Assembly: GCA_030765065.1 (NCBI GenBank)
Contig: CM060990.1
Location: 9,175,501 to 9,239,500 of the forward strand
Reading direction: 5' to 3'
Source of the DNA: Deroplatys truncata
Taxonomy: Eukaryota; Arthropoda; Insecta; Mantodea; Mantidae
Length of the DNA stretch: 64,000 bases
Below are positions 2,971 to 43,500 of the stretch, one piece after another (position 1 is the stretch's first letter; the number at the start of each line of letters is the position of its first letter). A program made the translations under genes and the position numbers. A model generated the notes under the pieces. That model did not search any database, was not told the DNA's origin, and saw only the letters and a program-made list of their open reading frames with translations.

Positions 2971-3020
2971 AGCAGCAGCGATGACGAGGACTCAAAGTGC
3001 ACCTTGTACTTTAAAATCAT

Positions 3021-3271
3021 TGTTGTGCGTGAAATCTGTGTGTCCTAGTGCCTCAACAAACTATGAATTTTAATGTGCATTTTTTCTCCTAATATTTCTT
3101 ATATTGTTCATTTATTGTATTCATATGTTAATCTCCTGTAATCAAATAATCCATTATGTTATTCTCAAACTATGTATTCATATGTTAAGCAAATAATACA
3201 TCATGTTAATCTCAACTATGTATTCATATCTTTATCCAATGTAGTGTATTCAAATTATAAATAAAGAAAAC
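3021..3271. other. A+T-rich non-coding stretch with short repeats
   Basis: CTATGTATTCATATGTTAA-like words recur two to three times between about 3,110 and 3,240, followed by AATAAAG at 3,261. No gene is seen. It may be the 3' flank of the virus-like cluster. Confidence 0.6.
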
Positions 3272-23625: not shown

Positions 23626-24522
23626 AATAGTGTCCCGCTATATTGTTTATCATGGTGTTCATACATTTAATGTCCCGCTATATTGTTTATCCCGGGGTTC
23701 ATACATTGTGTGCCCCGCTATATTGTTTATCATGGAGTTCATACATTTAATGTCCCGCTATATTGTTTACCGCGCGTTCATACATTTTATGTCCCGCTAT
23801 ATTGTTTATCCCGGGGTTCATACATTGTGTGCCCCGCTATATTGTTTATCATGGAGTTCATACATTTAATGTCCCGCTATATTGTTTACCGCGCGTTCAT
23901 ACATTTTATGTCCCGCTATATTGTTTATCCCGGGGTTCATACATTGTGTGCCCCGCTATATTGTTTATCATGGAGTTCATACATTTAATGTCCCGCTATA
24001 TTGTTTACCGCGCGTTCATACATTTTATGTCCCGCTATATTGTTTATCCCGGGGTTCATACATTGTGTGCCCCGCTATATTGTTTATCATGGAGTTCATA
24101 CATTTAATGTCCCGCTATATTGTTTACCGCGCGTTCATACATTTTATGTCCCGCTATATTGTTTATCCCGGGGTTCATACATTGTGTGCCCCCTATATTG
24201 TTTATCATGGAGTTCATACATTTAATGTCCCGCTATATTGTTTACCGCGCGTTCATACATTTTATGTCCCGCTATATTGTTTATCCCGGGGTTCATACAT
24301 TGTGTGCCCCGCTATATTGTTTATCATGGAGTTCATACATTTAATGTCCCGCTATATTGTTTACCGCGCGTTCATACATTTAATTTCCCGCTATATTGTT
24401 TACCACGCGTTCATACATTTTATGTGCCGCTATATTGTTTATCCCAGGGTTCATACATTTTGTGTCCCTACTATATTCTTTACCACGCGTTCATACATAT
24501 TATGTCTGGCTATATTTTTTCT
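23626..24522. repeat. 39-40 bp minisatellite, left part, with 119-bp higher-order unit
   Basis: The unit is TGTCCCGCTATATTGTTTAT + CATGGAGTTCATACATTTAA. Three variants (CATGGAG, CGCGCG, CCCGGGG forms) alternate in order and repeat every 119 bp, at least five times almost unchanged. The final units are more diverged. The same family in the same orientation resumes at 40,530, so the Polinton-type element splits one array. Confidence 0.95.
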
Positions 24523-24528
24523 CACGGA
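24523..24528. repeat. Target-site duplication, left copy (CACGGA)
   Basis: It sits directly left of the AGTAGT terminus. It pairs with CACATA at 40,524-40,529, matching 4 of 6 bases. Outside the element the minisatellite reads TCACGGA on the left and GTTCAT on the right. Joined, these give the expected unit sequence TCACGGAGTTCAT. Confidence 0.7.
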
Positions 24529-24739
24529 AGTAGTTATAAATTGAGGGTTGAAAATCTCTTAATATTCATGGAATGTCTATTCATATGCAAATTAGCTCCC
24601 CTCCCTTACCTCCCTCCTCCCCTCCCAGCTCCTTAGGGCTTCCAAGTGCAGCTGCGGCCATAAATCTTGTTGAGTACAATGGAAGCTTGACAGTTAAGCA
24701 ATTAACGTTATCCTTCACCTGTCAAAACGAACAAAGGGG

Positions 24740-25270
24740 CCATAAAGTTTAAGCTTCTGTAACAAAGGCGAGATGTTTGTCCTACCCATTCCACATCAGC
24801 CTACGTGCTTTCCTGCAATGCAGCAACTCACTCCACTCCTATTGTTTCTCGAACACGTGCGGGAACAAAGAGCTTGCTGGACAAAGGGAAGAGATTTCTA
24901 TTGTGTGCCTTTCTATTGTCCGGGGCAAGGCTACTTTCTGGCATACTCATTCAACTAGATTTTAACAAAAGAACAACGCTTGCCCTTCAGCTGTCAAAAT
25001 GAACAAAGTTCATGATGAATTAGGGTCGTGACAAAGAGAACCTAAAGCCAGTTAACAGAGAAACAAGTTCTATTGTCCGGGCCAAGCCTTCTTTCAAAAT
25101 GAACAAAATGGATGCAGGAAAAGGAAGAGATTCTATTGTGTGCCTTTCTATTGTCCGGGGAAAGACTACTTTAGAAAGACCATCTGGCATTTCTCATTCC
25201 ACAACCCTATAACAAAGCCGGTCCCTTTCCATTGTTCGAACACCTGGTAGCTTAACAAAAGAATCTGAGG
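24740..25270. repeat. Subterminal short repeats of the left arm
   Basis: TCTATTGTCCGGGGCAAG-like words occur at about 24,914, 25,070 and 25,147. CTGTCAAAATGAACAAA-like words occur at about 24,719, 24,991 and 25,093. They are mirrored in the right arm at about 39,890-40,340. They are the only clear repeats near the tips, a position where replication or transposition proteins often bind. A role here is inference. Confidence 0.7.
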
Positions 25271-25400
25271 GTGGCCTTATGCTAGTCCTGTCCTTGTTCG
25301 CGTGAAAGAGAGAGAAGCTTGTTTACCAGCTATACGTAAAGACTTTAACAACGTCAGAGTCAGCCATGATGGTTTTTGGCCTGAGGAGCTGTTCTCTTCG

Positions 25401-25619
25401 ATGTTTTACGAGATCCTACGAATATATCCGAGCATAGTTAACAAGCATTCTGTTTGGCTTATTTCAAGCAGCGACTCCGAAAGGCGTTTAATATACATTT
25501 CATTACATGCATTAAACCTCTGCGTGGATATCCATAGATTGGTGTTCGATTCTTACTGTAATCAAGAGTATATTGCTAATGAGAAATTAATGATTGATAT
25601 TATTATATCATTATCCTAA
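25401..25619 (+). CDS. Unrecognised 72-codon frame, conserved in both arms
   Basis: An ATG frame (MFYEILRIYPSIVNKHSVWL...) is also open in the right arm (39,433-39,651, minus) with only about four residue differences. No motif is recognised. Because a B-box-like GTTCGATTC lies inside it and the arms are similar anyway, conservation of the frame is weak evidence for coding. Confidence 0.2.
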   Translation: MFYEILRIYPSIVNKHSVWLISSSDSERRLIYISLHALNLCVDIHRLVFDSYCNQEYIANEKLMIDIIISLS

Positions 25620-26290
25620 TTAATAAAAGGGCGTTCAGAGGATTGTAGCTCGAATCTTACCAAGTGAAACTCTAACGCGTAATAACTATTAAACTATGCA
25701 CCGCCAGATTAAAAATGTATTTAACAAATATAATTTAATTTTTACATATCATTACCCCAATTAATGAAACGGGGTTCACAGGGTTCTAGCTCGAATCTTA
25801 CCCAGCGAAACTCTAATGCTTAATAAATATTAAACTATGCAAGGTCACATTAAAATGCATTTAACAAATATAATTTGATTTTTATATATCATTACAATAA
25901 TTAATAAAAGGGTGCTCAGGGGGTCCTAGATCGAATCTGCGAAACTCTAATGCGCAATAACTATTAAACTATGCACGGCCAGATTAAAATGTATTTAACA
26001 AATATAATTTAATTAATGAAAGAGTAATCAGAGGGTTCTAACTCGAATCTGCGAAACTCTAATGCTTAATAAATATTAAACTATGTGAGTATTGGGCGGT
26101 CAGATTAAAATGTGTTTAACAAATATAATTTAATTTATACGACATTACAATGTTTAACGAGCTGTATTCTTAGGAACCCAGAGGCCCCTAGTTCGAATCT
26201 TACCCTAAGAAACGCTATAATAACTATTAAATTATTGAAGCAGGGGCGGTCGGATTAAAATTGCATTTAACAATTATAATTGTTTATATT
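25617..26290. repeat. ~115-140 bp tandem repeat carrying B-box-like motifs (left arm)
   Basis: About five units, each with AATTAATAAAAGGG - CAGAGGGTTCTAGCTCGAAT - CTTACC - GAAACTCTAATGC - TATTAAACTATG - CAGATTAAAATG - ATTTAACAAATATAATTTAA. Each keeps a T/CTCGAATC core resembling a tRNA B box. Mirrored at about 38,760-39,440. Confidence 0.85.
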
Positions 26291-26339
26291 AAACCACCGC
26301 GTATACTCAGATATCCCGATGCCTGGACACCATTCTTTC

Positions 26340-26690
26340 TTCTCTCTTTTTCTTTCTATCATATCTCATATGATTTTCGCTAGACGCTCTTCTTGCATAA
26401 ACAGTCACATGATTTCTCCTCGCATTCTTCTATTAACATTCATATGATTTCACTACATGTTCTTCTTCTGAACACATTCATATGGTTTTCTCAACACATT
26501 CCTCTATTGACAGTCACATGATTTCTCCTCTAATTTTTCTATCAACATTCATATGATTTCACTACACGTTCTTCTTCTGAAAACATTCATATGGTTTTCT
26601 CAACACATTCCTCTATTGACATACACATGATTTCTCCTCGCATTCTTCTATTAACATTCATATGGTTTTCACTATACGTTCTTCGAATGA
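26340..26690. repeat. Degenerate ~40-bp repeat (CATATGATTT...CATTCTTC), left arm
   Basis: Recurring CATTCATATGATTTC - CTCGCATTCTTCTATTAA words. The same family returns at 28,030-28,430 as CATTCACACGATTTTC - ACATTCTTC, and is mirrored in the right arm. Confidence 0.8.
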
Positions 26691-26859
26691 AAAGAGACAA
26701 AATGATGCAATAAAAACCGATTATAGCTCGGGATGCGACGCGTCATTTACGAATTTTTCGAAACTGGTCTGGATGCATGGGTTCGAATCCTGGGAGTGAT
26801 TACAAATTCATCTTCTAATAACTCCAAAACTAATTAAAATAAAGACGGTAAATAAACTT

Positions 26860-27560
26860 TATTACTTTTATGTCATTAGCTCGTTTCTTGTGCATGTATA
26901 TTAGAGTACCAGGTGTCATGGCTTCGATTCTTAATTATAAAATCTCAACTATCTCAGAAGCTAACAGGGATAGAGGAGCGGACCAAAGCATGATTGTTAG
27001 CTCCTATGATGGGCAATTAATGCCTGTATATAATTTCCAATCAGTTGTCCCTAGTTCGAATCCCGATCTTTCAGTGACTTCTTTAATTTTCCACTGTGCT
27101 CTAGAATATATCACCTAGATCAATGTTGTGACTGCATACAGGTCTTTAAACATGACAAACTGATATTATAAATAATTTCGTCCTGGTGTTCTGAGTTCGA
27201 ATACTGATTCAATGAAATTTACTTATAAATTTAATAACATAGTAAATAATTAAGATAAAGGCACCTAGTATACCTTATTACGTTTATGTCATCAGATAGT
27301 ATCTTGTGGGTGTACATTAGGTTATCTAACGTCCAGGGTTCGATCCTTAAGTTTAAATCTCAATTATCGCAGAAACTAGCAGAGATAGAGTTGCGAGAGA
27401 AAGCATGTTTGATAGCTCCTGCAATGAATAATTAATGGTGTATATAATTTCCAATCAGTTGACCCTAGTTCGAATCCCGATCTTTCAATGACTTCCTTAA
27501 TTTCCTCTGTAATCTAGAATACATCACTTAGATTGATGCTGTAACTGCATGCAGCTTTGT
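26860..27560. repeat. Two direct copies of a ~270-bp repeat with paired B-box-like motifs
   Basis: Copy 1 (about 26,862-27,135) and copy 2 (about 27,280-27,555) share TTATGTCAT, AATCTCAA, TATAATTTCCAATCAGTTG, CCTAGTTCGAATCCCGATCT and CTAGAATA. Each has one B-box-like motif near its start and a better one (GTTCGAATCCCG) later. An 82-codon frame in copy 1 is identical in both arms but is not open in copy 2, so I treat the repeat as non-coding. Mirrored at 37,590-38,290. Confidence 0.8.
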
Positions 27561-27763
27561 GTAAAGACATTATAGATGTACTCTGTGTGTGAGAGAGAGA
27601 GCGAGAGAGAGCGAGAGGAAGGGAAACAAGTAGGGATAGAAGTGCTGAAAGTCTCTGCACATGCGCAGCAGGCGATGGTGTCATTGGCTGTAATAATCAC
27701 GTGATGTGTAAGCATCACAGCCATGATGACGTGCCGGCATCGCCTGGAGGGGGTTTAGATCCC

Positions 27764-27771
27764 TATATGAA
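27764..27771 (+). promoter_or_regulatory. TATA-like box upstream of the LPxR-family gene (left arm)
   Basis: TATATGAA here corresponds to TATATAAA on the minus strand of the right arm (37,399-37,392). It lies about 130 bp before the short ATG at 27,895 and the donor-like GTGAGT at 27,902. Confidence 0.45.
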
Positions 27772-28029
27772 CAGATATCTGCTCATGTTAGAACTGTTGT
27801 GTGCTTATTAACTTTACATTTAAGTTTTAAAGAACTTTAAAAGCAACGCGAGGTGGAGGCCATCTACACGTACAGCGCATATCAACACATAACAATGCAA
27901 GGTGAGTTTTTTACATACCTATACAAAATCACTGTTGGCTTTTACAATAAATTTAATTTTGTTTGAACGTTACAGTACATGAAAGACGATTCGTTGCAAA
28001 GAGCATGATATTTTCTAATCTGTGCTTTA

Positions 28030-28435
28030 CATTCACATGGATTTCACTGCGTACTCTTCTCCAGTTCACATGATTTTCTCCTCACATTCTTCTTACATAA
28101 ACATTCATACGATTTTCCCCCTCATTCTTTGTTTCACTATACACTCACATGATTTCCTCTACTCATTCTTTGTTTCCCTGCAGGTTCATGCTCTATTAAC
28201 ATTCACACGACTTTCTCTGCAGATTCTTTGCTTCCATTAACATTCACACGATCTTCGCTACACATTCTTCCTACATAAACATTCATGCGATTTTCTCCAC
28301 TCATTCTTTGTTTCGCTATACACTCACACGATTTCCTCTACTCATTCTTTGTTTTTCTACACGTTCATATTCACATGATTTTCTGTACTTATTCTTTTTT
28401 TTCTCTACACATTCATAAGCATACTTACAAAACAT
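28030..28435. repeat. Degenerate ~40-bp repeat, second block (left arm)
   Basis: CATTCACACGATTTTC - TACTCATTCTTTGTTT words recur about ten times. It lies in the presumed 5' non-coding part of the LPxR gene and is mirrored at about 36,740-37,150. Confidence 0.8.
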
Positions 28436-28518
28436 ACACACACCCTAGTTCTAATATAAAGTAGTGTATAACTTGTTCTTCAACTTGAAAAATGTAGTGA
28501 AAATAATAATTCATTTCA

Positions 28519-28866
28519 ATGTCTGTTACAGATTGTTTAACTGATAGACTTAACAAGATGGTTGAAGAGCGTAGTTTCCTACCGACTCGTCGAGTTCAAG
28601 ATCTCGAAATAGATCTTAACTATGAGATAAAGTCCTTAAAGAGAGTTCAAACAAGATATGGTACCAGGATCGTATCTTCACTGGAGGATTGTCAAGTGTT
28701 GTTGCCAGAGCGCTATAATTCGTTAACCGATCAAGAGATTGCAGAAATACCTGGGAACGTATACCTCCAGTATAACGGTATGGCAGAGATGGGGAAATTT
28801 AAGACATGTAAATTGTCTTTTTTACATGCACAGAAGGTATGTAGAAGTGTTAAACTTAAGTATTGA
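28519..28866 (+). CDS. 'YGT/LPxR' family small protein, 115 aa (left arm copy)
   Basis: An intact ATG frame. Residues about 38-57 read YEIKSLKRVQTRYGTRIVSS, followed by LEDCQVLLPERY, then an acidic linker and a basic C-terminal strand (KFKTCKLSF). The pattern parallels the 105-aa protein at 2,240-2,557. The right-arm copy (36,299-36,646, minus) differs at very few residues. A donor-like GTGAGT at 27,902 and an acceptor-like TTACAG at 28,531 suggest an alternative short first exon, present in both arms. Splicing is not shown. I recall similar proteins in insect Polintons. The function is unknown, with nucleic-acid binding only a guess. It is the best-preserved gene of the element. Confidence 0.7.
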   Translation: MSVTDCLTDRLNKMVEERSFLPTRRVQDLEIDLNYEIKSLKRVQTRYGTRIVSSLEDCQVLLPERYNSLTDQEIAEIPGNVYLQYNGMAEMGKFKTCKLSFLHAQKVCRSVKLKY

Positions 28867-29199
28867 GTGCCCCCTATTTTAACATGAAAAAATCATAAAT
28901 AAAACAACTGACTCATTGATAATACATATAAAGCTACAAAAGATACACGCTATAGAATTTATAACAAAATCGAAATATCGCATATGTTTAAATTTAGTTA
29001 TATCTAATGCATTGAAATAACAATAAATATCCGAATGTTTATAACACATCTTTTGTGTTTCATTTTACATGCATCATAACAAAAAATGTAATTCTTTTCA
29101 GTTTGCTTTTAATAGTCTAAATCAGTTTTCTAAGACATTCATTGTGCAATGTTTCAGACTGTGCAATAAGGGGAAGAAGAAGAGGAATAGCCTGCCGCC

Positions 29200-29349
29200 A
29201 TGCAAAGGATGCTGACGCTATTGGAGGGTAGAATAAGCAGCATCGGCACCTACAAGAAACATTTCGGCAAGAAGCGGGTGCTGCGACATCTACATCACCG
29301 AAACACGTTAAGACAGGATCCTTATATAACATTACAGGACATACAATGA
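29200..29349 (+). CDS. Possible 49-aa basic protein (left arm)
   Basis: ATG in a strong eukaryotic context (GCCGCCATGC) opens 49 codons rich in Arg, Lys and His (KKHFGKKRVLRHLHHR) before TGA at 29,347. The same start context exists in the right arm. It is too short for firm support. It lies 330 bp downstream of the LPxR gene on the same strand. Confidence 0.25.
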   Translation: MQRMLTLLEGRISSIGTYKKHFGKKRVLRHLHHRNTLRQDPYITLQDIQ

Positions 29350-29829
29350 AAAAATACGGGCAATTTTGTATACAATTCAATGCATAGCTGAGAGTTAGCT
29401 TGAGCGAGTCTCCCTATATTCACTGAAATTAAGCATTGTGAGCAATAATTTAAATGACGGTGAAAATACTTTAAATAATGGTGAAATTTATATACCTAAA
29501 AAGACTTGAATCCTATATACATTAACAATATCAAAAACCTGTTTGCTGTGTTGGAATACAAATTATGAAAATAAAGAGACTTTCGTTTAAATAATACTCA
29601 ATAAATTTGCATAACCTACTGTTGCAGGTGAAACGCCATATGCTGGAACAATGAGCTGGACGAGGAAAGTGATGGAAATGCAAGTTAAATAATAACAATA
29701 AAAAAGAATGAAGGTATGCTTTTACATAATGTTTTTATTCATTAAAAATCCTTACATTCCTAATGAAAAAATAAATTCTTACAATGAATAGTTTAAAATA
29801 TAAGCTGCATCACGTGAGTCAGAGGCCTG

Positions 29830-30765
29830 CATGTAAATACTGTATCACGAATTATTAAACAATTCAATGAGCTCTATACAGGGATATTAACACTGGTGTT
29901 GACACAGCCATTTACAACTTCCTCTGGTTGATGAGAGCAATCTATAATAAATATAGGAGCAAATTTAAGTAATATTTTCTCTTCAATAAAGGATAATTCT
30001 CTTTTTTATAATAATAAGAGATTGAGTGCATATCATGCAATGATGCAAGTCTAGAGTTTCCAAGTCAAAGGATAACATTCGCTATTAAGATAAAGTCTAA
30101 AATTAGTTATGTCACAATGATCAAAAAAAGAGAACCGTCTTTAGATGCATTACTCGATCTTAAGTCAGAGCACCAAAAATGACAAATCACGGCTTCTCCA
30201 TTTTAGATGCGGTGTCACTATTCAGGTAAATTCCTGTAACACAGCAGGTTGAGTATGCAGATCCATGATCCTAAATGGGTTAAACAGAGTCTTATCCAGC
30301 TTAACAGTCTTGAGGATCTCAGCATCAGAAAGTCAAATCACAGGCCTTCTCCACTCGATGAGTACAGGTTTAACAACGGCATTCTCTTCACCCTGAGACG
30401 GGGTAAAGTATATAAGTGTTCAACTTGACAAGGGATTCTAAACTCGTTGTTAGAGTGCAGAGCTGATGTATTATATGGTGAAAACAGTGTTCCTCTTCTT
30501 AGTGATCTTGTCGTCGAATCTCGGTGTCATTGATGTGTCGGTAACATTGAAGATGCCCATGATGCTGCTGATTGCGTGATGTTAACCTGATGGGCGTCAA
30601 GGGCAGAGCATGATGTGTGCGTCGAATCATTCCATTATTATATCCTCGACGTCGTTGACTTCTTCTAAAATCTATAGGCATTATGCTTATATCCTTGTTT
30701 CTAAAGGCAATGATATTGCTGTTATGCTCCCCTGTTTGCTCTATGAAGCGGATGTTTATGAACAA
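29830..30765 (-). pseudogene. Decayed double-jelly-roll capsid-like gene (left arm copy, fossil)
   Basis: The mirror image of 34,355-35,360, with the same landmarks in reverse orientation, so it reads outward from the core toward the left tip. It is broken in several places. See the right-arm copy for the recognisable motifs. Confidence 0.5.
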
Positions 30766-31140
30766 CAGGTAAAATTTGATTTGATGGTTCCTGTGAAATA
30801 CGGTATCCAGGCGTAACAGATGGGAAAACTGATAGATTGAGTGTCCACTTTTACTATCGAGGAAGGAGACTGATGCAATACTGCGCTAAATTCGTATGAT
30901 GCTCAACCTAAATATATTCACTAGGAAATCAGATTCAGACATCTGATTAGGTGGAATAACGTTGTCATTGAAGGGACACAGAACGTTCCTATAGAACAAT
31001 CACTGGAAAAAAATCAAGAGTGAAAGGACATTTTAATGACATTGCATTATTATTAATTGATCTAATAAAGAAGACTTTCGCATCCTAATAGGAGGAATCT
31101 TTCTAACTCTTTCCTTGTTTCAATGTTCTGCAGATGCTTA

Positions 31141-31713
31141 TCACGCTATAAAACCGCCCAGCTTTAAATTCTGAATAATTTCGCTAATCGCATCGGAAAA
31201 GTCATTTTTATCAGGTGTTTGAAGCATCATTAGTACCCTTAGCATGTTTACCAAATCAATAGGTTCGGTGTAGCGGTATAGCATCTCCTCTGTATTCGCT
31301 TTGGATATATCTTCTAATTTAGGTGATTTGACACTAGTATGCTTGCTTTCATTGGTGTGTTTATTCAGAACTTGCTGATTCAGAGAAACTGCTCTCATTG
31401 TTTCATCAGTGGTAGCTCGTGACGTTATTACAGGATCATCTGAACTGGTTCCAAGTACGGTACATCTTGAATCCCGCTCTTCGGAACTTGAAAAGATTTC
31501 AGGATCTCGTTTGGCTGTTGTAGTCAATGCACAGCTGGTCATCGCTTTACAGCATCTTCTCCTATGTTGCTTAAGCCTTGAAATTGTCCTGTTTTTTAAA
31601 GTTCTATTACATATGCAGCACTTAACAAAGCGATTACTCCCCCCTTGGGAAACATACAAAAAATCAAGATTCTTGTAAATTGACTGTAATTGTCCATCTT
31701 TGTGGGTGTTCAT
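31141..31713 (-). CDS. BED-like zinc-finger protein, 190 aa (core of element)
   Basis: Intact frame from the ATG at 31,713. Near the N-terminus, after YKNLDFLYVSQGG, comes CCICNRTLKNRTISRLKQHR ending RRC. This C-x2-C...H-x4-C arrangement resembles the BED/hAT-type zinc finger used for DNA binding. The middle is Ser/Thr-rich and looks disordered. The C-terminal 50 residues are predicted helical by eye (DLVNMLRVLMMLQT...FSDAISEIIQNLKL) and might mediate dimerisation. It lies just inside the left arm boundary, divergently arranged to the pX-like gene across the 21-bp array. It could instead be a captured transposase or host fragment. The role, such as binding element DNA, is inferred. Confidence 0.55.
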   Translation of the reverse strand: MNTHKDGQLQSIYKNLDFLYVSQGGSNRFVKCCICNRTLKNRTISRLKQHRRRCCKAMTSCALTTTAKRDPEIFSSSEERDSRCTVLGTSSDDPVITSRATTDETMRAVSLNQQVLNKHTNESKHTSVKSPKLEDISKANTEEMLYRYTEPIDLVNMLRVLMMLQTPDKNDFSDAISEIIQNLKLGGFIA

Positions 31714-32106
31714 GCTCAAGCAGTATATATAAACTGGTCAATGTATACTGTAGATGTTGAATTCGTATACGATAACACGAGACTGAGCTATTTTTTCAAC
31801 ATTTATGTATTTATGTATGTTCTCAGGCTTTGATGCATATAAACAGTCATATCCAAATTAGACTAAGCAAAATATTGTAGCATTTACACATAATAGTTGT
31901 AATTCCGTTAATTATAACTATCTCATTAAGCACAAGCAGATTCAAGTAGCATGAAATGGATTCATAGAGGTAAGAGTACAAGTTTTCTTGATAGCTAGCA
32001 CAGAGAATGCGAGAGTTGACTGAGATACTGGTCTAGCTAGCACGAGTCTGAAGCTCATGTATCATCCTTTAGCGAAATGGCACACGCATCTGAGAGCCTT
32101 TAGCGA

Positions 32107-33190
32107 GAGCGGGTCACCTTTTCCCTGTCCTTTACTCTGAGAAGGTTACCTTTTTTCCTGTGTGTGGGTCAACTTTGTCCCTGAGCGGGTCACCTTTTTC
32201 CCTTTGTGGCTCAACTTTTTCCCTTTATGGGTCACCTTTTTCCCTTTGTGGCTCACCTTTTTCCCTTTATGGGTCACCTTTTTCCCTTTGTGGGTCACCT
32301 TTTTCCTTTTGTGGGTCACCTTTTTCCCTTTATGGGTTACCTTTTTCCCTTTATGGATCACCTTTTTCCCTTTGTGGGTTACCTTTTTCCCTTTATGGGT
32401 TACCTTTTTCCCTTTATTGGTCACATTTTTCCCTTTGTGGGTCACCTTTTTCCCTTAGCTGGTCACCTTTTTGCCTTTATGGGTGACCTTTTTCCCTTTA
32501 TGGGTCACCTTTTTCCCTTTGTGGGTCACCTTTTTCCCTTTGCTGGTCACCTTTTTCCCTTCGTGGGTCACCTTTTTCCCTTCATGGGTCACCTTTTCCC
32601 TTTGCGGGTCAACTTTTTCGCTTTGCTGGTCACCTTTTTCCCTCTGATGGTCACCTTTTTCCCTTTGCTGGTCACCTTTTTCCCTTTATGGGTCATCTTT
32701 TTCCCTTTATGGATCACATTTTTCCCTTTGCGGGTCACCTTTTTCCCTTTGCTGGTCACCTTTTTCCCTTTGATGGTCACCTTTTTCCCATTGCAGGTCA
32801 CCGTTTTCCCTTTATGGGTCACCTTTTTCCCTTTGCTGGTTACCTTTTTCCCTTTGTGGGTCACCTTTTTCCATTTGTGAGTCACCTTTTTCCCTTTGTG
32901 GGTCACCTTTTCCCTTTAAGGGTCACCTTTTTCCCTTTATGGGTCACCTTTTTCCCTTTGCTGGTTACCTTTTTCCCTTTGTGGGTCACCTTTTTCCATT
33001 TGTGAGTCACCTTTTTCCCTTTGTGGGTCACCTTTTCCCTTTAAGGGTCACCTTTTTCCCTTTATGGGTCACCTTTTTCCCTTTGCGGGTCAGCTTTTTC
33101 CCTTTTGCTGGTCACCTTTTTCCCGTTGCAAGTCACCTTCCCTGAGCAGTCACCTTTTTGCCTGAGCGAGTCACCTTTTGCCTGAATGGG
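32107..33190. repeat. 21-bp minisatellite (GGGTCACCTTTTTCCCTTTRT), about 50 units
   Basis: Units of 21 bp, each with a GGTCAC word and a CTTTTTCCC tract, run almost without interruption. Variants alternate GTGGG, ATGGG, GCTGG and GCGGG at the junction. Because 21 is a multiple of three, frames stay open. The plus strand gives GHLFPFM repeats and the minus strand gives the lysine-rich THKGKKV. It lies between the two core genes, which point away from it. Confidence 0.97.
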
Positions 33191-33368
33191 TTACGTGATG
33201 GGCATGTCTAGAACATTGACATGAAACAGTTTTCCACTAAGTTCACGTCTAAAGTCACTTTCAAAGTCTAACATATGAATAGGCTGTGAGCATTCTTGTT
33301 TCATCCGCTCTAGCTTGACAGCTAAAATAAAATAAATCGCTCTTAATGTATATACGCTAATGAGAAAG

Positions 33369-33376
33369 TATAAAAG
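33369..33376 (+). promoter_or_regulatory. TATA box of the pX-like gene
   Basis: TATAAAAG, 78 bp upstream of the ATG at 33,454, is a good core-promoter match in the A+T-rich DNA right of the 21-bp array. Confidence 0.6.
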
Positions 33377-33453
33377 AACAGCTTGGAAAAGAGTGCAAAC
33401 ATCTGATGTTACATTAGGTGAAAAATTTGGCAGCGTGACTAGTAACAGCAATT

Positions 33454-33990
33454 ATGAAGGGAAAGGTAGTTCTAGGTGTAGGAACCACGAAGAAGAAACG
33501 AGGAGGATTTCTACCTCTCATACCAATTATTGCAGCTCTAGGCGCTGCTGCTGTAGGTGCAGCCCAAATTGCCTCAGCAGTAAATAAGAAAAAGTCAGCA
33601 GATAAACAAATTGCCGAAATGATGAGGCATAAGAGAGAAATTGAGAGAAAGGTATCTGTTGGCGGCGGGTCCAAAAAGAAGAAACAAGGAGGATTTCTAC
33701 CGCTCATACCAATTATTGCAGCACTAGGAGCCGCCGCTGGAGGTGCATCACAAATTGCTACAGCTGTAAATAAGAAAAAAGCTGCGGATAAACAACTTGC
33801 GGAAATGATGAGACGTAACACAGAAATTGAATCAAGAGGGAAAGGACTACGAGTGAAGAAGAATAAGGGGAGGAACATCGAATCGAAGAGGGGGACAGAG
33901 CCTGAAAGGGAATTCAAAAACTCTAGCAGAGGGCTATACTTGTCCCTAAAAAAAGCATTAAGTAACATACATCCCCGCTTCTATGTTTAA
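33454..33990 (+). CDS. Adenovirus pX/mu-like minor virion protein of Polinton, 178 aa
   Basis: The frame is open from ATG to stop. It contains a direct internal duplication. Residues about 10-55 carry a KKKRGG basic start, the hydrophobic Gly/Ala helix GGFLPLIPIIAALGAAAVGA and then NKKKSADKQIAEMMRH. Residues about 71-118 repeat this with few changes. The C-terminus is Lys/Arg-rich and ends with SRGLYLSLKK, like the 'GLYLKPYK' tail I recall from insect Polinton and adintovirus pX-type proteins. Such proteins combine a membrane-active helix with a DNA-condensing basic region and are processed in virions. A TATA box lies 78 bp upstream. The duplicated helix is unusual. Confidence 0.75.
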   Translation: MKGKVVLGVGTTKKKRGGFLPLIPIIAALGAAAVGAAQIASAVNKKKSADKQIAEMMRHKREIERKVSVGGGSKKKKQGGFLPLIPIIAALGAAAGGASQIATAVNKKKAADKQLAEMMRRNTEIESRGKGLRVKKNKGRNIESKRGTEPEREFKNSSRGLYLSLKKALSNIHPRFYV

Positions 33991-34354
33991 TGTTTTAGGA
34001 TTCCTCATATTAGGATGCGAATGTCTTCTTTATTAGATCAATTAATAATAATAATTATAATAATAATAATAATGCAATGTCATTAAAATGTCCTTTCACT
34101 CTTGATTTTTTTTCCAGTGATTGTTCTATAGGAACGTTCTGTGTCCCTTCAATGATAACGTTATTCCACCTAATCAGATGTCTGAATCTGATTTCCTAGT
34201 GAATATATTTAGGTTGAGCATCATACGAATTTAGCGCAGTATTGCATCAGTCTCCTTCCTCGATAGTAAAAGTGGACACTCAATCTATCAGTTTTCCCAT
34301 CTGTTACGCCTGGATACCGTATTTCACAGGAACCATCAAATCAAATTTTAACTG

Positions 34355-35360
34355 TTGTTTATAAACATCCGCTTCATAGAGCAAACAGGGGAGCATAACA
34401 GCAATATCAATGCCTTTAGAAACAAGGATATAAGCATAATGCCTATAGATATTAGAAGAAGTCAACGACGTCGAGGATATAATAATGGAATGATTCGACG
34501 CACACATCATGCTCTGCCCTTGACGCCCATCAGGTTAACATCTCGCAATCAGCAGTTCCTACAGTTATTGGGCTTCAGAATCCTATAATCATGGGCATCT
34601 TCAATGTTACCGACACCTCAATGACACCGAGATTCGACGACAAGATCACTAAGAAGAGGAACACGTGTGTTCACCACATAATACATCAGCTCTGCACTCT
34701 AACAACGAGTTTAGAATCCCTTGTCAAGTTGAACATTTATATACTTTTCCCCGTCTCAGGGTGAAGAGAATGCTGTTGTTAAACCTGTACTCATCGAGTG
34801 GAGAAGGCCTGTGATTTGACTTTCTGATGCTGAGATCCTCAAGACTGTTAAGCTGGATAAGACTCTGTTTAACCCATTTAGGATCATGGATCTGCATACT
34901 CATCCTGCTGTGTTACAGGAATTTACTTGAATAGTGACACCGCATCTTAAATGGAGAAGCCGTGATTTGTCATTTTTGGTGCTCTGACTTAAGATCGAGT
35001 AATGCATCTAAAGACGGTTCTCTTTTTTTGATCATTGGGACATAACTAATTTTAGACTTTATCTTAATAGCGAATGTTATCCTTTGACTTGGAAACTCTA
35101 GACTTGCATCATTACATGATATGTACTCAATCTCATATTATTATAAAAAAACAGAATTATCCTTTATTGAAGAGAAAATATTACTTAAATTTGCTCCTAT
35201 ATTTATTATAGATTGCTCTCATCAACCAGAGGAAGTTGTAAATGGCTGTGTCAACTCCAGTGTTAATATCGCTGTACAGAGCTTATTGAATTGTTTAATA
35301 ATTCGTTATACAGTATTTACATGCAGGCCTCTGACTCACGTGATGCAGCTTATATTTTAA
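34355..35360 (+). pseudogene. Decayed double-jelly-roll capsid-like gene (right arm copy, fossil)
   Basis: Scattered segments recall the insect Polinton 'double jelly roll-like domain' structural protein. One reads RLYLNSECYP (about 35,055-35,084). Another reads APIFIIDCSHQPEEV near 35,200-35,235, resembling the family's late 'APL.VIDCS.QNE' motif. An upstream IEWRRP segment lies at about 34,786. The gene reads outward from the core and is broken in several places. It is present in both arms. Family identification is from memory of these motifs. Confidence 0.55.
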
Positions 35361-36298
35361 ACTATTCATTGTAAGAATTTATTTTTTCATTAGGAATGTA
35401 AGGATTTTTAATGAATAAAAACATTATGTAAAAGCATACCTTCATTCTTTTTATTGTTATTATTTATCTTACATTTCCATCACTTTCCTCGTCCAGCTCA
35501 TTGTTCCAGCATATGGCGTTTCACCTGCAACAGTAGGTTATGCAAATTTATTGAGTATTATTTAAACGAAAGTCTCTTTATTTTCATAATTTGTATTCCA
35601 ACACAGCAAACAGGTTTTTGATATTGTTAATGTATATAGGATTCAAGTCTTTTTAGGTATATAAATTTCACCATTATTTAAAGTATTTTCACCGTCATTT
35701 AAATTATTGCTCACAATGCTTAATTTCAGTGAATATAGGGAGACTCGCTCAAGCTAACTCTCAGCTATGCATTGAATTGTATACAAAATTGCCCGTATTT
35801 TTTCATTGTATGTCCTGTAATGTTATATAAGGATCCTGTCTTAACGTGTTTCGGTGATGTAGATGTCGCAGCACCCGCTTCTTGCCGAAATGTTTCTTGT
35901 AGGTGCCGATGTTGCTTATTCTACCCTCCAATAGCGTCAGCATCCTTTGCATGGCGGCAGGCTATTCCTCTTCTTCTTCCTCTTCTTCTTCCCCTTATTG
36001 CACAGTCTGAAACATTGCACAATGAAAGTCTTAGAAAACTTATTTAGACTATTAAAGGCAAACTGTAAAGAGTTACATTTTTTGTTATGATGCATGTAAA
36101 ATGAAACACAAAATATGTGTTATAAACATTCGGATATTTATTGTTATTTCAATGCATTAGATATAACTGAATTCAAACGTATGCGATATTGCGATTTTGT
36201 TATAAATCCTATAGCGTGTATCTTTTGTAGCTTTATATGTATTATCAATGAGTCAGTTGTTTTATTTATGATTTTTTCATGTTAAAATAGGGGGGCAT

Positions 36299-36646
36299 TC
36301 AATACCTAAGTTTAACACTTCTACACACCTTCTGTGCATGTAAAAAAGACAATTTACATGTCTTAAATTTCCCCATCTCTGCCATACCGTTATACTGGAG
36401 GTATACGTTCCCAGGTATTTCTGCAATCTCTTGATCGGTTAACGAATTATAGCGCTCTGGCAACAACACTTGACAATCCTCCAGTGAAGATACGATCCTG
36501 GTACCATATCTTGTTTGAACTCTCTTTAAGGACTTTATCTCATAGTTAAGACCTATTTCGAGATCTTGAACTCGACGAGTCGGTAGGAAACTACGCTCTT
36601 CAACCATCTTGTTAAGTCTATCAGTTAAACAATCTGTAACAGACAT
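36299..36646 (-). CDS. 'YGT/LPxR' family small protein, 115 aa (right arm copy)
   Basis: An intact frame nearly identical to the left-arm copy at 28,519-28,866, differing at about two residues: Asp/Gly in the segment before NYEI, and Lys/Arg near the C-terminus. The TATA-like box (37,392-37,399), the short upstream ATG at 37,266-37,268 and the donor-like site next to it are also conserved. Two intact copies in a decayed element suggest either recent duplication of the arm or gene conversion. Confidence 0.7.
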   Translation of the reverse strand: MSVTDCLTDRLNKMVEERSFLPTRRVQDLEIGLNYEIKSLKRVQTRYGTRIVSSLEDCQVLLPERYNSLTDQEIAEIPGNVYLQYNGMAEMGKFKTCKLSFLHAQKVCRSVKLRY

Positions 36647-37391
36647 TGAAATGAATTATTATTTTCACTACATTTTTCAAGTTGAAGAACAAGTTATACA
36701 CTACTTTATATTAGAACTAGGGTGTGTGTATGTTTTGTAAGTATGCTTATGAATGTGTAGAGAAGCAAAGAATAAGTACAGAAAATCATGTGAATATGAA
36801 CGTGTAGAGAAACAAAGCATGAGTAGAGGAAATCGTGTGAGTGTATAGCGAAACACAGAATGAGTGGAGAAAACGTATGAATGTTTATGTAAGAAGAATG
36901 TGTAGCGAAGATCGTGTGAATGTTAATGGAAGCAAAGAATGTGCAGAGAAAGTCGTGTGAATGTTAATAGAGCATGAACCTGCAGGGAAACAAAGAATGA
37001 GTAGAGGAAATCATGTGAGTGTATAGTGAAACAAAGAATGAGGGGGAAAATCGTATGAATGTTTATGTAAGCAGAATGTTAGGCGAAAATCATGTGAACT
37101 GGAGAAGAGTACGCAGTGAAATCCATGTGAATGTAAAGCACAGATTAGAAAATATGATGCTCTTTGCAACGAATCGTCTTTCATGTACTGTAACGTTTAA
37201 ACAAAATTAAATGTATTGTAAAAGCCAACAGTGATTTTGTATAGGTATGTAAAAAACTCACCTTGCATTGTTATGTGTTGATATGCGCTGTACGTGTAGA
37301 TGGTCTCCACCTCGCGTTTCTTTTAAAGTTCTTTAAAACTTAAATGTAAAGTAAATAAGCACACAACAGTTCTAACATGAGCAGATATTTG

Positions 37392-37399
37392 TTTATATA
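37392..37399 (-). promoter_or_regulatory. TATA-like box of the right-arm LPxR gene
   Basis: TATATAAA on the minus strand, a better match than its left-arm counterpart. Confidence 0.45.
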
Positions 37400-37589
37400 G
37401 GGATCTAAACCCCCTACAGGCGATGCCGGCACGTCATCATTGGTGTGATGACTACACATCACGTGATTATTACAGCCAATGACACCATCGCCTGCTGCGC
37501 ATGTGCAGAGGCTTTCAGCACTTCTATCCCTACTTGTTTCCCTTCCTCTCGCTCTCTCTCGCTCTCTCTCACACACAGAGTACATCTAT

Positions 37590-39450
37590 AATGTCTTTAC
37601 ACAAAGCTGCATGCAGTTACAGCATCAATCTAAGTGATGTATTCTAGATTACAGAGGAAATTAAGGAAGTCATTGAAAGATCGGGATTCGAACTAGGGTC
37701 AACTGATTGGAAATTATATACACCATTAAATATTCATTGCAGGAGCTATCAAACATGCTTTCTCTCGCAACTCTATCTCTGCTAGTTTCTGCGATAATTG
37801 AGATTTAAACTTAAGGATCGAACCCTGGACGTTAGATAACCTAATGTACACCCACAAGATACTATCTGATGACATAAACGTAATAAGGTATACTAGGTGC
37901 CTTTATCTTAATTATTTACTATGTTATTAAATTTATAAGTAAATTTCATTGAATCAGTATTCGAACTCAGAACACCAGGACGAAATTATTTATAATATCA
38001 GTTTGTCATGTTTAAAGACCTGTATGCAGTCACAACATTGATCTAGGTGATATATTCTAGAGCACAGTGGAAAATTAAAGAAGTCACTGAAAGATCGGGA
38101 TTCGAACTAGGGACAACTGATTGGAAATTATATACAGGCATTAATTGCCCATCATAGGAGCTAACAATCATGCTTTGGTCCGCTCCTCTATCCCTGTTAG
38201 CTTCTGAGATAGTTGAGATTTTATAATTAAGAATCGAAGCCATGACACCTGGTACTCTAATATACATGCACAAGAAACGAGCTAATGACATAAAAGTAAT
38301 AAAGTTTATTTACCGTCTTTATTTTAATTAGTTTTGGAGTTATTAGAAGATGAATTTGTAATCACTCCTAGGATTCGAACCCATGCATCCAGACCAGTTT
38401 CGAAAAATTCGTAAATGACGCGCCGTATCCCGAGCTATAATTGGTTTTTATTGCATCATTTTGTCTCTTTTCATTCGAAGAACGTATAGTGAAAACCACA
38501 TGAATGTTAATAGAAGAATGCGAGGAGAAATCATGTGTATGTCAATAGAGGAATGTGTTGAGAAAACCATATGAATGTTTTCAGAAGAAGAACGTGTAGT
38601 GAAATCATATGAATGTTAATAGAAGAATACGAGGAGAAATCATGTGACTGTTTATGCAAGAAGAGCGTCTAGCGAAAATCATATGAGATATGATAGAAAG
38701 AAAAAGAGAGAAGAAAGAATGGTGTCTAGGCATCGGGATACCTAAGTATACGCGGTGGTTTAATATAAACAATTATAATTGTTAAATGCAATTTTAATCC
38801 GACCGCCCCCTGCTTCAATAATTTAATAGTTATTATAGCGTTTCTCAGGGTAAGAATCGAACTAGGGGCCTCTGGGTTCCTAAGAATACAGCTCGTTAAA
38901 CATTGTAATGTCGTATAAATTAAATTATATTTGTTAAACACATTCTAATCTGACCGCCCAATACTCACATAGTTTAATATTTATTAAGCATTAGAGTTTC
39001 GCAGATTCGAGTTAGAACCCTCTGAACACCCTTTCATTAATTAAATTATATTTGTTAAATACATTTTAATCTGGCCGTGCATAGTTTAATAGTTATTGCG
39101 CATTAGAGTTTCGCAGATTCGATCTAGGACCCCCTGAACACCCTTTTATGAATTATTGTAATGATATATAAAAATCAAATTATATTCGTTAAATGCATTT
39201 TAATGTGACCTTGCATAGTTTAATATTTATTAAGCATTAGAGTTTCGCTGGGTAAGATTCGAGCTAGAACCCTCTGAACACCGTTTCATTAATTAGGGTA
39301 ATGATATGTAAAAATTAAATTATATTTTTAAATACATTTTTAATCTGGCGGTGCATAGTTTAATAGTTATTACACGTTAGAGTTTCACTTGGTAAGATTC
39401 GAGCTACAATCCTCTGAACGCCCTTTTATTAATTAGGATAATGATATAAT
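37590..39450. repeat. B-box-bearing repeats of the right arm
   Basis: The mirror image of the tandem and direct repeats at 25,617-27,560, with GATTCGAA-type motifs on the plus strand (minus-strand B-box orientation), for example at about 37,683, 38,099, 38,374 and 38,856. Confidence 0.8.
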
Positions 39451-40523
39451 AATATCAATCATTAATTTCTCATTAGCAATAAACTTTTGATTACAGTAAG
39501 AATCGAACACCGATCTATGGATATCCACGCAGAGGTTTAATGCATGTAATGAAATGTATATTAAACGCCTTTCGGAGTCGTTGCTTGAAATAAGCCAAAC
39601 AGAATGCTTGTTAACTATGCTCGGATATATTCGTAGGATCTCGTAAAACATCGGAGAGAACAGCTCCTCAGGGCAAAAACCAATGATGGCTGACTCTGAC
39701 GTTGTTAAAGTCTTTACGTATAGCTGGTAAACAAGCTTCTCTCTCTTTCACGCGAACAAGGACAGGACTAGCATAAGGCCACCCTCAGATTCTTTTGTTA
39801 AGCTACCAGGTGTTCGAACAATGGAAAGGGACCGGCTTTGTTATAGGGTTGTGGAATGAGAAATGCCAGATGTTCTTTCTAAAGTAGTCTTGCCCCGGAC
39901 AATAGAAAGGCACACAATAGAATCTCTTCCTTTGTCCTGCATCCACATTGTTCATTTTGAAAGAAGGCTTGCCCCGGACAATAGAACTTGTTTCTCTGTT
40001 AACTGGCTTTAGGTTCTCTTGGTCACGACCCTAATTCATCATGGGTTTTGTTCATTTTGAAAGCTGAAGGGCAAGCGTTGTTCTTTTGTTAAAAGCTAGT
40101 GGAATGAGTATGCCAGGAAGTACTCTTGCCCCGGACAATAGAAAGGCACACAATAGAAATCTCTTCCTTTGTCCAGCAAGCTCTTTTTTCCCGCACGTGT
40201 TCGAGAAACAATAGGAGTGGAGTGAGTTGCTGCAGTGCAGGAAAGCTCGTAGGCTGATGTGGAATGGGTAGGAAAAACATCTCGCCTGTGTTACAGAATC
40301 GTAAAATTTATGGCCCCTTTTTTCGTTTTGACAGATGAAGGATAACCTTAATTGCTTAACTGTCAAGCTTCCATTGCACTCAACATGATTTATGCCCGCA
40401 GCTGCACCTGGAAGCCCTAAGGAGCTGGGAGGGGGAGGGGGGAGTGGGGGAGGGACCTAATTTGCATATGAATAGACATTCCATGAATATTAAGTGTTTT
40501 TCAACTCTCAATTTATGACTACT

Positions 40524-40529
40524 CACATA
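40524..40529. repeat. Target-site duplication, right copy (CACATA)
   Basis: Directly right of ACTACT; the minisatellite phase resumes with GTTCATATATTTT. It matches the left copy CACGGA at four of six bases. Confidence 0.65.
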
Positions 40530-43500
40530 GTTCATATATTTTGTGTTCCGCTATATTGTTTACCACGCGGTCGTTCATTTTGTGTCCGAGTATATTGTTT
40601 ACCACGAGTTCATAAATTTTATGTGCCGCTATATTGTTTGTCACGGAGTTCATACATTCTGTGTACCGCTATATTGTTTACCACTCGTTCATACATTTTA
40701 TGTCCCGCTATATTGTTTATCACGGCGTTCATACATTTTGCGTCCCGCTATATTGTTTACCACGCGTTCATACATTTTATGTCCCGTTATGTTGTTTATC
40801 ACGAGTTCATACATCATATGTGCCGCTATGTAGTTTATCACGAGTTCATACATTTTATGTCCCGTTATCTTGTTTATCACGAGTTCATACATCTTATGTG
40901 CCGCTATGTTGTTTATCACGAGTTCATACATTTTATGTGCCGCTATTTTGTTTATCACGTGTTTATACATCTTATGTGCTGCTGTGTTGTTTACCACGAG
41001 TTCATATATTTTATGTCCCGCTATATTGTTTATCACGAGTTCATACATTTTATGTGCCGCTATTTTGTTTATCACGTGTTCATACATCTTATGTGCCGCT
41101 GTGTTGTTTACCACGAGTTCATATATTTTATGTCCCGCTATATTGTTTATCACGAGTTAATACATCTTATGTACCGCTGTGTTGTTTATCACGAGTTCAT
41201 ACATGTTATGTGCCGCTGTGTTGTTTATCACGAGTTCATACAATTTATGTGCCGTTGTGTTGTTCATCACGAGTTCATACATTTTATGTGCCGCTATGTT
41301 GTGTATCACAAGTTCGTACAATTTATGTGCCGTTGTGTTGTTCATCACGAGTTCATACATTTTATGTGCCGCTATGTTGTGTATCACGAGTTCATACATT
41401 TTATGTGCCGCTATGTTGTTTATCACGAGTTCATACATTTTATGTGCCGCTGTGTTGTTTATCACGAGTTCATACAATTTATGTGCCGTTGTGTTGTTCA
41501 TCACGAGTTCCTACATTTTATGTGCCGCTATGTTGTGTATCACGAGTTCATACATTTTATGTGCCGCTGTGTTGTTTATCACGAGTTCATATATTGTATG
41601 TGCCGCTGTGTTGTTTATCACGAATTCATGGACGTTATATGCCACTGTGTTGTTTATCACGAGTTCATGTATTCTATGTGCCGCTATGCTGTTTATCACG
41701 ATTTCATGTATTTTGTGCGACACAGTGTTAATTATCACAAGTTCATGGATTTTATATGCCACTATGCTGTTTATCACGATATCATGCACTCTTTGTACCA
41801 CTATATTGTTTCTCACGAGATCTTGCTATTTTTGTGCCACTATATTGTTTCTCACGATATCATGCACTCTTTATGCCACTATATTGTTTCTCACGAGATC
41901 ATGTCCTGTCTGTGTCACTGTGTTGTTGTTTATGTACCTTTTGTGCAGCAATGTTGTTTCTCAAGATCTCATGTCCTTTTGTGCCGCTATGTTGTTGTAC
42001 TTGCCACCTTATTGTTTCTCACACTTCATGCACTGTTTGTGCCAATGTATTGTTGCTCACGGCATCGTGCAGATTTTTTTTTTGCCACTGTGCTGCTTTT
42101 CACGGGCTCATGCCCTTTTTGTGCCGGTAGGTTTTTCTCGAGCTCGTGTACTGCTTGGGCCGCTATGTTGTTTCTCACGAGCTCGTGCACTCTTTGTGCC
42201 GCTAGGTTGTTCAGGAGCTCATGGCTTCTTGTGTCGCTATAGTGTTTGTCACGAGATAATGCATTTTTGTTGTGCTATGTTGTTCCTCACGAGCTCGAGT
42301 AGTGTTTCTTCTGCTATGTTGCTTTTCAGGAGCTCGTAAACCTTTTTCACTGTTATGTTGCTTCTCACGAGCTCGCATACGTTTGCTCTGCTATGTGGTT
42401 CCTCACGAGCTCCAGCACTGTTTGTTCTGCTATGTTGCTTCTCACGAGCTCGAATACCGTTTGTTCTGCTATGTTGCTTCTTAGGAGCTCGAGCACTGTT
42501 TGTTCTATGTTGTTTCTCACGAGCTCGTACACTTTTTGTGCCCCTAATTTGTTTCTTCTAAACTCGAGACCTTTTGTGCCGCTATGTTTCTTCTCACGAG
42601 CTCGAGTACTGTTAGTACTGCTATGTTGTTTCTCACCAGCTCGTCTACTTTTTGTGTCTTCTATGTTGTTTCTTCCGAACTCGTGTACTTTTTGTGCCTC
42701 TATGTTCTTTCTTACCAGTTCGAATGCTGTTTGTTTTTCCATGTTGTTTTTCACCAGCTCGTGTACTTTTTGTGGCTCTATGTTGTTCTTCCCGAACTCC
42801 AGACCTTTTGTGCCACTATGTTGCATCTCACGAGCTTGAATGCTGTTTGTTCTTCCATGTTTTTTCGTATGCGTTCGTGTACGTTATTGTGGTGCTATGT
42901 TGTTCCTCCCGAACTCGAGACATTTGTTGCGCTAGGTTGTTCCCGAACTCGAGAACTTTTGTGGCACTATGCTGCTTCTCACGAGCTCGAGTACTGTTTA
43001 TTCTTCTATGTTGTTCCTCCCGAACTCGAGACTTTTGCGGCGCTATGTTGTTCTTCCCGAAATCGAGACATTTGGTGGCACTATGTTGTTCTTCCCGAAA
43101 TCGAGACATTTGTTGCGCTAGGTTGTTCCCGAACTCGAGAACTTTTGTGGCACTATGCTGCTTCTCACGAGCTCGAGTACTGTTTATTCTTCTATGTTGT
43201 TCCTCCCGAACTCGAGACTTTTGCGGCGCTATGTTGTTCTTCCCGAAATCGAGACATTTGGTGGCACTATGTTGCTTCTCACGAGCTCGAGTACGGTTTG
43301 TTCTTCTATGTTGTTTCTCACGTGTTCGTATACGGTTTGTTCTGCTATGTTGTATCTCACGAACTCGAGTACTGTTGTTCTGCTATGTTGTTTCTCTCGT
43401 GTTCATGTACTGTTTGTTCTGCTATGTTGTTTCTCACGTGTTCGTGTACTGTTTGTTCTGCTGTTGTTTCTCACGAGCTCGAGTTCTGTTTGTTTTGCTA

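Follow-up and report, generated by a model that had tools for sequence, protein, structure and literature searches.

Giant inverted arms in a Polinton of the mantis Deroplatys truncata: a probable non-autonomous, palindromic derivative of a family with full-length copies

INTRODUCTION

How can an element with the termini and the size of a Polinton consist mostly of one of its own ends? The question is raised by a 64,000-nucleotide stretch of the Deroplatys truncata genome (contig C16, positions 9175501 to 9239500 of the forward strand), which we call the window and whose positions serve as coordinates throughout. Within it, positions 24529 to 40523 are occupied by a 15,995-bp element made of two 6.5-kb inverted arms flanking a 2.9-kb core. 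We analyzed this element and surveyed the 4.29-Gb assembly, which comprises 818 contigs and of which C16 makes up 707 Mb (16.5%), for its relatives. Our results indicate that the element probably derives, as a palindromic and non-autonomous form, from a Polinton family represented by full-length copies elsewhere in this genome, and that this form has been propagated.

RESULTS

Two nearly identical arms inserted into a minisatellite

The two arms, 6,571 bp on the left and 6,525 bp on the right, together account for 82% of the element, in agreement with a first-pass annotation of the window, which had put their share above 80%. They could be aligned over 6,454 columns with 143 mismatches (97.8% identity), and the homology thus did not end near the tips. 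The element begins with AGTAGT at 24529 and ends with ACTACT at 40523, as first annotated, and so carries the termini and the terminal inverted repeats of a Polinton/Maverick element. The adjoining 6-bp sequences, CACGGA and CACATA, are identical at four of six positions and represent a decayed target duplication of the length expected for Polintons/Mavericks. This near-duplication, which the first-pass annotation had also recorded, is backed by the insertion site itself: one 39/40-bp minisatellite lies on both flanks, and removal of the element plus one 6-bp copy in silico restored the minisatellite unit in register. Because the unit comes back in register, the ends of the element are fixed exactly. 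The features of the insertion are as follows, with the strand given where one applies.

23631-24527: 39/40-bp minisatellite left of the insertion site (Tandem Repeats Finder; register checked)
24523-24528: left 6-bp target-site duplication, CACGGA (flank comparison)
24529-31099, plus strand: left giant inverted arm, tip AGTAGT; its inner end (31099/31100) is common to other loci
31100-33998: single-copy core, 2,899 bp (arm alignment)
33999-40523, minus strand: giant inverted arm on the right, tip ACTACT; together with pX it shows the ancestral arrangement
40524-40529: right 6-bp target-site duplication, CACATA (flank comparison)
40529-41902: 39-bp minisatellite right of the insertion site (Tandem Repeats Finder; register checked)

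Full-length relatives identify the end that was duplicated

When the genome was searched with 572 bp of the tip, the 40 candidates scored, out of 2,976 first-look ones, yielded 73 matches, which is not a copy count. Among 40 long tip matches, 26 formed 13 tip pairs, the window element included, delimiting elements of 7 to 21 kb, and 14 were single tips. We read all 13 paired elements, each as two pieces or, for the two shortest, as one, and one further element, E13, chosen through matches to pX and to the arm/core joint, giving a set of 14 (the window element and E1 to E13). Giant arms of more than 4 kb were present in seven of these (the window element, E1, E4, E5, E7, E11, and E13), while six (E2, E3, E6, E8, E9, and E10) had terminal repeats of about 0.7 to 0.9 kb and E12 had a 1.0-kb terminal repeat. 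The six short-repeat elements are full-length relatives of 17 to 21 kb, with PolB and integrase genes near one end and capsid and PLA2-pX genes near the other.

Gene content was compared by tblastn, using open reading frames (ORFs) of the short-repeat elements as queries. PolB was matched in 6/6 short-repeat elements and in 0/8 giant-arm or derived elements (the window element, E1, E4, E5, E7, E11, E12, and E13). Integrase was likewise matched in none of the eight and in five of the six short-repeat elements, the sixth (E2) having an unread gap of 1.65 kb. The packaging ATPase, PLA2-pX, the double jelly-roll (DJR) capsid protein, and three further ORFs were each matched in all six; stops interrupt several of the matches in the short-repeat elements. 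We also ran Pfam on 16 ORFs of short-repeat elements and one E1 ORF. DNA_pol_B_2 was found in an E9 ORF only (2.4e-10), other PolB-region ORFs giving weak matches or none; rve was found in E8 (4.2e-10) and E6 (5e-9), DJR-like domains in E3 (1.6e-107) and E8 (8.7e-76), Pox_A32 in E9 (9.8e-6), and Phospholip_A2_4 in E2 (1.2e-14), where Adeno_PX stayed below the cut-off (0.00014). A weak T7-tail-fibre match was seen in E2, and 6 of the 17 ORFs had no Pfam match. The 21-kb E2 also contains a Mutator-like transposase ORF (PF20700, E 1.1e-55, at L011:1693-3324), which is probably a nested insertion.

The relatives resemble the window element in an asymmetric way. At one end, they align with the window arm over two stretches, one from the tip to about 26357 and one from about 29056-29083 to 31085, at 66 to 93% identity and with gaps, and this end runs on into pX in the same orientation as on the right side of the window element. 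The other end shares only the first ~770 bp (for example, positions 201 to 969 of the E2 left half match window positions 24529 to 25297); beyond these, the similarity was limited to minisatellite-like stretches and, in E9, one match of 122 bp. Since the relatives' end aligns in this way and continues into pX, the right arm plus pX of the window element represents the ancestral order. The left arm is an inverted copy of the capsid end and occupies the place of PolB, integrase, and the opposite end.

PolB gave nothing at 1e-6 in the window element or in the rest of the window, and no rve integrase match was found in the element. The DJR capsid gene is broken, with 69% of the query recovered in eight pieces and 19 stops over both arms, and only 22% of the packaging ATPase query is covered. 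The pX gene that the first-pass annotation had placed in the core was recognized by Pfam as two Adeno_PX stretches; its PLA2 domain is gone, and stop-bearing remnants of that domain persist in E1, E11, and E13. The corresponding features are listed below.

24529-25297, plus strand: part of the arm common to both ends of full-length relatives (ancestral short terminal repeat, ~770 bp; mirror at ~39756-40523)
29796-30631, minus strand: left-arm copy of the DJR major capsid gene, broken by stops and gaps (tblastn, E3 capsid ORF as query)
34492-35357, plus strand: right-arm copy of the DJR major capsid gene, likewise broken (tblastn, same query)
33191-33451, minus strand: N-terminal fragment of the packaging ATPase gene (stop-to-stop frame bounds; comparison by eye with a relative's ORF)
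33454-33990, plus strand: pX ORF, 178 amino acids, two tandem pX domains (Adeno_PX PF05829, E 1.9e-8; PLA2 domain missing)

The arms also contain a stretch of about 2.7 kb (26358-29076), which includes arm gene 1 (described below) and is absent from the full-length copies; it is present in E1, E5, E7, E11, E12, and E13 and partly in E4. As this stretch is missing there, none of the six full-length copies is the direct parent. A PolB probe matched at 96 to 100% identity in the 40 scored of 1,709 candidates, the query's own place included. Possible donors of PolB and integrase are present in this genome, as fuller relatives that are alike among themselves. Together, these results bear out the Polinton origin given in the first-pass annotation, as well as its reading of the element as a duplicated end without replication genes.

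The arm/core joints recur at other loci

Both arm/core joints of the window element were found at five other loci, four on C16 and one on C15 (E1, E13, E11, L035, and L033). At E1 and E13 they have the same form as in the window, while E11 and L035 carry an 18-bp addition at the left joint. The C15 locus, L033, differs at the left joint, where some 75 bp on the arm side are of another sequence, and its left arm also has a deletion farther outward; by eye, these 75 bp resemble capsid-side sequence of E8. The routes to these loci differed: E1 was met through tips, E11 through tips and pX, and E13 through joint and pX, while L033, L034, and L035 were taken from the pX list irrespective of structure, with about 4.7 kb read at each and the tips outside. 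Two of these three structure-blind loci (L033 and L035) have arms on both sides.

Genome-wide probes gave a similar picture. With a pX-core query, 40/40 scored matches (window included) had 94 to 100% identity over 97 to 100% of the query, on 11 contigs; two of them adjoin each other on C3. With a joint query, 40/40 scored matches (window and E5 included) crossed the joint at 92 to 100% identity. Flanking sequences differ from element to element. The recurring joints and the two of three structure-blind loci argue for a propagated non-autonomous derivative, which shares its ends with fuller relatives, lacks their enzymes, and occupies several sites. The genome search with tip and core proposed in the first-pass annotation thus yielded further loci of the same arm/core architecture, as expected for the subfamily it had suggested. 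Among the best matches, those on C16 numbered 32/40 for long tips, 25/40 for pX, 18/40 for the joint, and 31/40 for PolB; this excess may be a bias, because all four probe queries come from C16.

These loci bear on three other accounts of the structure. Nothing speaks for an assembly artefact, in which a contig was mirrored or mis-joined, except that long inverted repeats are difficult in general. The two arms are set apart by 143 substitutions and by indels, the minisatellite is in register on either side of the insertion, and the structure was found again on C16 and C15 at different divergences, and we consider such an error very improbable. We give even less credence to two separate Polintons having inserted head to head, for which one could cite the many matches of related sequences in the genome: there is one target duplication in one minisatellite unit, and the same joints occur at other loci.

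Harder to set aside is a founder palindrome created by a single chromosomal recombination (a deletion with inverted duplication, or the fusion of opposed copies) and mobilised afterwards. One pair of joints is common to the window-type loci, as this account would have it, and the left joint has a short motif, TGAGGAAT, that occurs also beside pX and is compatible with microhomology joining. No direct evidence counts against it, only the analogy that linear replicons with terminal repeats make such products, as adeno-associated virus (AAV) does with its snap-back genomes (PMC8235507); there are adenovirus cases as well. We regard a chromosomal founder as rather unlikely, albeit a serious competitor to an origin during replication.

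Target duplications and the likeness of the two ends

We compared the 6-bp flanks of all 14 elements, with the right tip of E7 and the search ranges for E13 set by hand. Under a naive rule, the two flanks agreed at 6/6 positions in six elements, at 5/6 in four, and at 4/6 in one, and were lower in three (E1, 3/6; E5, 2/6; E9, 0/6), so that 11/14 elements reached at least 4/6. Mismatched pairings gave 6/6 in 0/182 cases and 5/6 in 4/182. When the tips of E1 and E9 were aligned by eye, TAGGGG and CACGGT, respectively, stood on both sides (6/6); the naive rule had been misled by a GTAG that occurs by chance within or next to the duplication. With the tips aligned, a 6-bp duplication, intact or decayed, is seen in 13/14 elements, and E5 is ambiguous.

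In a tree of 24 terminal repeats (without E11 and E13), the left and right repeats of one element were sisters in 9 of 12 cases; those of the window element and E1 formed an unresolved group of four, and E9 was split. For the arm segment 26690-27700, left and right were sisters in 7/7 pairs (modest support for E5 and E1), and for 30120-31080 in 4/5, the exception being E1. In the former segment, divergence between the arms of the window element is 0.6%, and their nearest neighbor is 4.3% away. This likeness fits with ends that copy each other during replication, with conversion after insertion, or with both.

The interior of the window arms is more alike than their tips

Divergence between the window arms is uneven. 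It amounts to 6.9% in the outer ~580 bp (6.2% when a pyrimidine tract is left out) and to 1.75% in the remainder, a change-point reached in 0/200 permutations. Within the interior, mismatches are clustered (dispersion reached by 1/2,000 permutations), and one identical run extends over 638 bp (0/1,000 permutations as long). The stretch 26793-27651 contains one mismatch. Elsewhere the pattern varies: in E1 the tip bin ties for the highest divergence (27/500) over an interior mean of 3 to 4%, in E4 divergence is raised in the outer 1.5 kb and once more at the inner end, and E5 and E7 show no simple tip/interior step.

This pattern might suggest that the mirror arm was made on the chromosome after insertion, by break-induced replication or gene conversion from a short terminal repeat. 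Such an origin would lead one to expect a conserved interior between more divergent tips, as only the interior would have been copied later, and the patchy mismatches and the 638-bp identical run agree with it. However, the joints occur at sites with other flanks and other 6-bp duplications, and the architecture therefore predates those insertions; moreover, later conversion of the interior accounts for the tip/interior step without making the arm. We consider a post-insertion arm improbable and read the window pattern as probable arm-to-arm conversion after insertion that spared the tip.

Other genes and repeats of the element

The remaining features of arms and core are listed below.

27895-27901, plus strand: arm gene 1, candidate first coding exon, with ATGCAAG followed by a GTGAGT donor (predicted from sequence only)
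28532-28836, plus strand: main coding exon of arm gene 1, 102 amino acids, with predicted splice sites (mirror within 36302-36646, minus strand)
31141-31719, minus strand: core ORF, 192 amino acids; a BED-like zinc finger is matched weakly (zf-BED in Pfam, E 0.025, below the cut-off)
32144-33139: 21-bp minisatellite, 47 copies (Tandem Repeats Finder)

The main exon of arm gene 1 has one difference in 305 bp between the window arms. The gene gave no Pfam match, no match in the read pieces of the six full-length relatives, and, with its frame as query, a single PDB match at E 0.89. Across 12 arm copies, with E5 represented by its left copy, 7/12 match stop-free over all 102 residues, although in two of these (E5 and E7 left) 18 residues are missing as a gap. 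Of the others, the two E13 copies lack the last five residues, the E12 copy contains a stop, and E1 right and E7 right end early in an altered frame. In scans of viral contigs, pX had 13 pattern matches and arm gene 1 had 3, none of which were confirmed, and phage records searched by protein returned none. A genome search with the Adeno_PX family gave 0 matches, and equally 0 in 14 controls.

Residues 142 to 192 of the core ORF share 39% identity with an ORF beside the integrase in E3, E6, E8, and E9 (E ~1e-6); the match is weaker in E10 and there is none in E2. This likeness fits the loss of the PolB/integrase end.

A B-box-like motif, GTTCGAATC (at most one mismatch), occurs nine times per arm, always pointing inward (25540-27480 and mirror 37685-39510), several copies sitting in 140-bp and ~415-bp repeats. 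The window holds 24 copies against 14.1 +/- 4.0 expected, with as many in 1/100 shuffles; the counts are non-independent because the two arms are copies. A longer B-box consensus was not enriched (33 versus 26.8).

Neighboring sequence

The minisatellite hosting the element is the third in the window, besides two very long ones (a 36-bp unit x 184 at 8105-14701 and a 58-bp unit x 192 at 48218-59586). Window positions 1 to 3050 form a GC-richer block (43 to 49%) with several ORFs, including a protein at 2240-2554 that matches arm gene 1 at 27 to 29% (E 3e-8). Five ORFs examined in this block had no Pfam match; the block may be a further virus-like element, one that would begin to the left of the window. 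A tRNA scan of the whole window and an Rfam scan of positions 24000 to 41000 found none.

DISCUSSION

How, then, might such an element arise and spread? The mode of replication of Polintons is inferred from their polymerase. In a linear, protein-primed replicon, a strand switch followed by fold-back would let synthesis copy back along the replicon's own capsid end; the resulting molecule would have two equal ends, good for both replication and integration. We lean modestly towards this copy-back step. Full-length relatives could then provide, in trans, the PolB and integrase that copy and integrate the product, much as with snap-back defective viral genomes, and, after insertion, gene conversion between the arms may have homogenised the interior of the window copy while sparing its tips. 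The supply of enzymes in trans is likewise only probable, and any interference with the full-length family is conjectural. More tentatively, and with some doubt, we suggest that Polintons yield chromosomally fixed copy-back satellites, endogenous counterparts of defective interfering genomes, that reach large copy number on their helper's PolB and integrase and may check the full-length family.

Several observations weigh against this reading as a whole or in part. The direct parent was not found, and the full-length copies match the remaining arm at only 66 to 93%, with gaps; several of them have stops in PolB or integrase. Copy-back was not observed, and a single founding inverted duplication, rather than many, suffices. 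E5, E7, and E12 can each be read as a central deletion of one palindromic ancestor, which is evidence for one founding event, and we dropped an earlier interpretation of them as recurrent snap-back products. The unequal arms of L033, whose inner ~75 bp on the left are unlike its own right arm and which has an internal deletion, are not explained by a simple mirror copy; the piece read at L034 shows the pX side, with the left side cut short. We do not claim that the inner arm end was deleted before the duplication, as L033 retains other sequence there. The two arms of E1 differ by 4.8% and 3.7% in the two segments versus 4.3% and 2.9% between E1 and the window, and the window tips are 6.1% apart versus 5.8% from the E1 tips. 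The E5 duplication needs a 2-bp slip to improve on the naive 2/6, and those of E1 and E9 depend on alignment by eye. pX has stops in E11 and E13, and pN/pS over pairs (0.54 for arm gene 1, 0.72 for the core ORF, and 0.72 for pX) is weak evidence for selection at best. Finally, all evidence comes from one genome assembly.

The properties of this subfamily are informative about Polintons in general. With the mirror of one end in place of the other, it still inserts with 6-bp duplications, natural evidence that replication and integration need the ends and not the unique genes, and the mostly alike ends are evidence about a linear intermediate whose ends copy each other. Surveys based on marker genes would miss Polinton satellites, because these have no PolB, integrase, or intact capsid gene; the mirror architecture offers a means of recognizing them.

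Comparison with known systems

The window element and its relatives resemble vertebrate Polintons/Mavericks in the AGTAGT//ACTACT ends, the 6-bp target duplications, the element size, and, in the full-length relatives, the PolB, integrase, capsid, and ATPase genes (PMC8097293). In contrast, the window element has 6.5-kb repeats, lacks PolB and integrase, and has a broken capsid gene, whereas the terminal repeats of 134 intact vertebrate Mavericks range from 46 to 1,447 bp, with a mean of 402 (PMC8097293). The earlier view that Polinton repeats are normally far shorter holds against this set, but not against protist Polinton-like viruses, for which terminal repeats of "hundred-to-thousands" of bp are mentioned (PMC12220804). 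Repeat length alone is therefore not novel. These protist viruses share with the window element their terminal repeats, sometimes thousands of bp long, and short target duplications; unlike it, they are described as gene-complete and were found by capsid or other markers, and neither "palindrom" nor "non-autonomous" appears in the main text of these two papers (PMC12220804, PMC10120064).

Adintoviruses likewise combine PolB, an rve integrase, and adenovirus-like virion genes, but they are defined by gene-complete viruses, and the likeness here is one of gene content (PMC11071296). Teratorn is also a virus-derived mobile element with long inverted repeats; it differs in being a herpesvirus/piggyBac fusion of 41 to 182 kb with 18-bp terminal inverted repeats (PMC6431247).

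A further parallel is provided by adenovirus variants in which a duplicate of one end has come to lie at the opposite end; these are linear protein-primed replicons with enlarged inverted ends but, unlike the window subfamily, they belong to a free virus. A similar architecture is that of AAV snap-back (defective interfering) genomes, which consist of one end and its mirror copy, symmetric or asymmetric, and are replicated by a helper (PMC8235507). Like these, the window element is self-complementary and consists of one end plus its inverted copy. Unlike these parvovirus genomes in particles, it belongs to a set of chromosomal insertions with target duplications and has a 2.9-kb spacer (PMC8235507).

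In our literature search, judged by titles and abstract openings, we recognized no non-autonomous or palindromic Polinton. What is novel about the element is that the mirror of one end has taken the place of the other, and that this form, which lacks PolB and integrase, has been propagated. Within the literature searched, a genomic, propagated Polinton version of the snap-back genome appears to be new.

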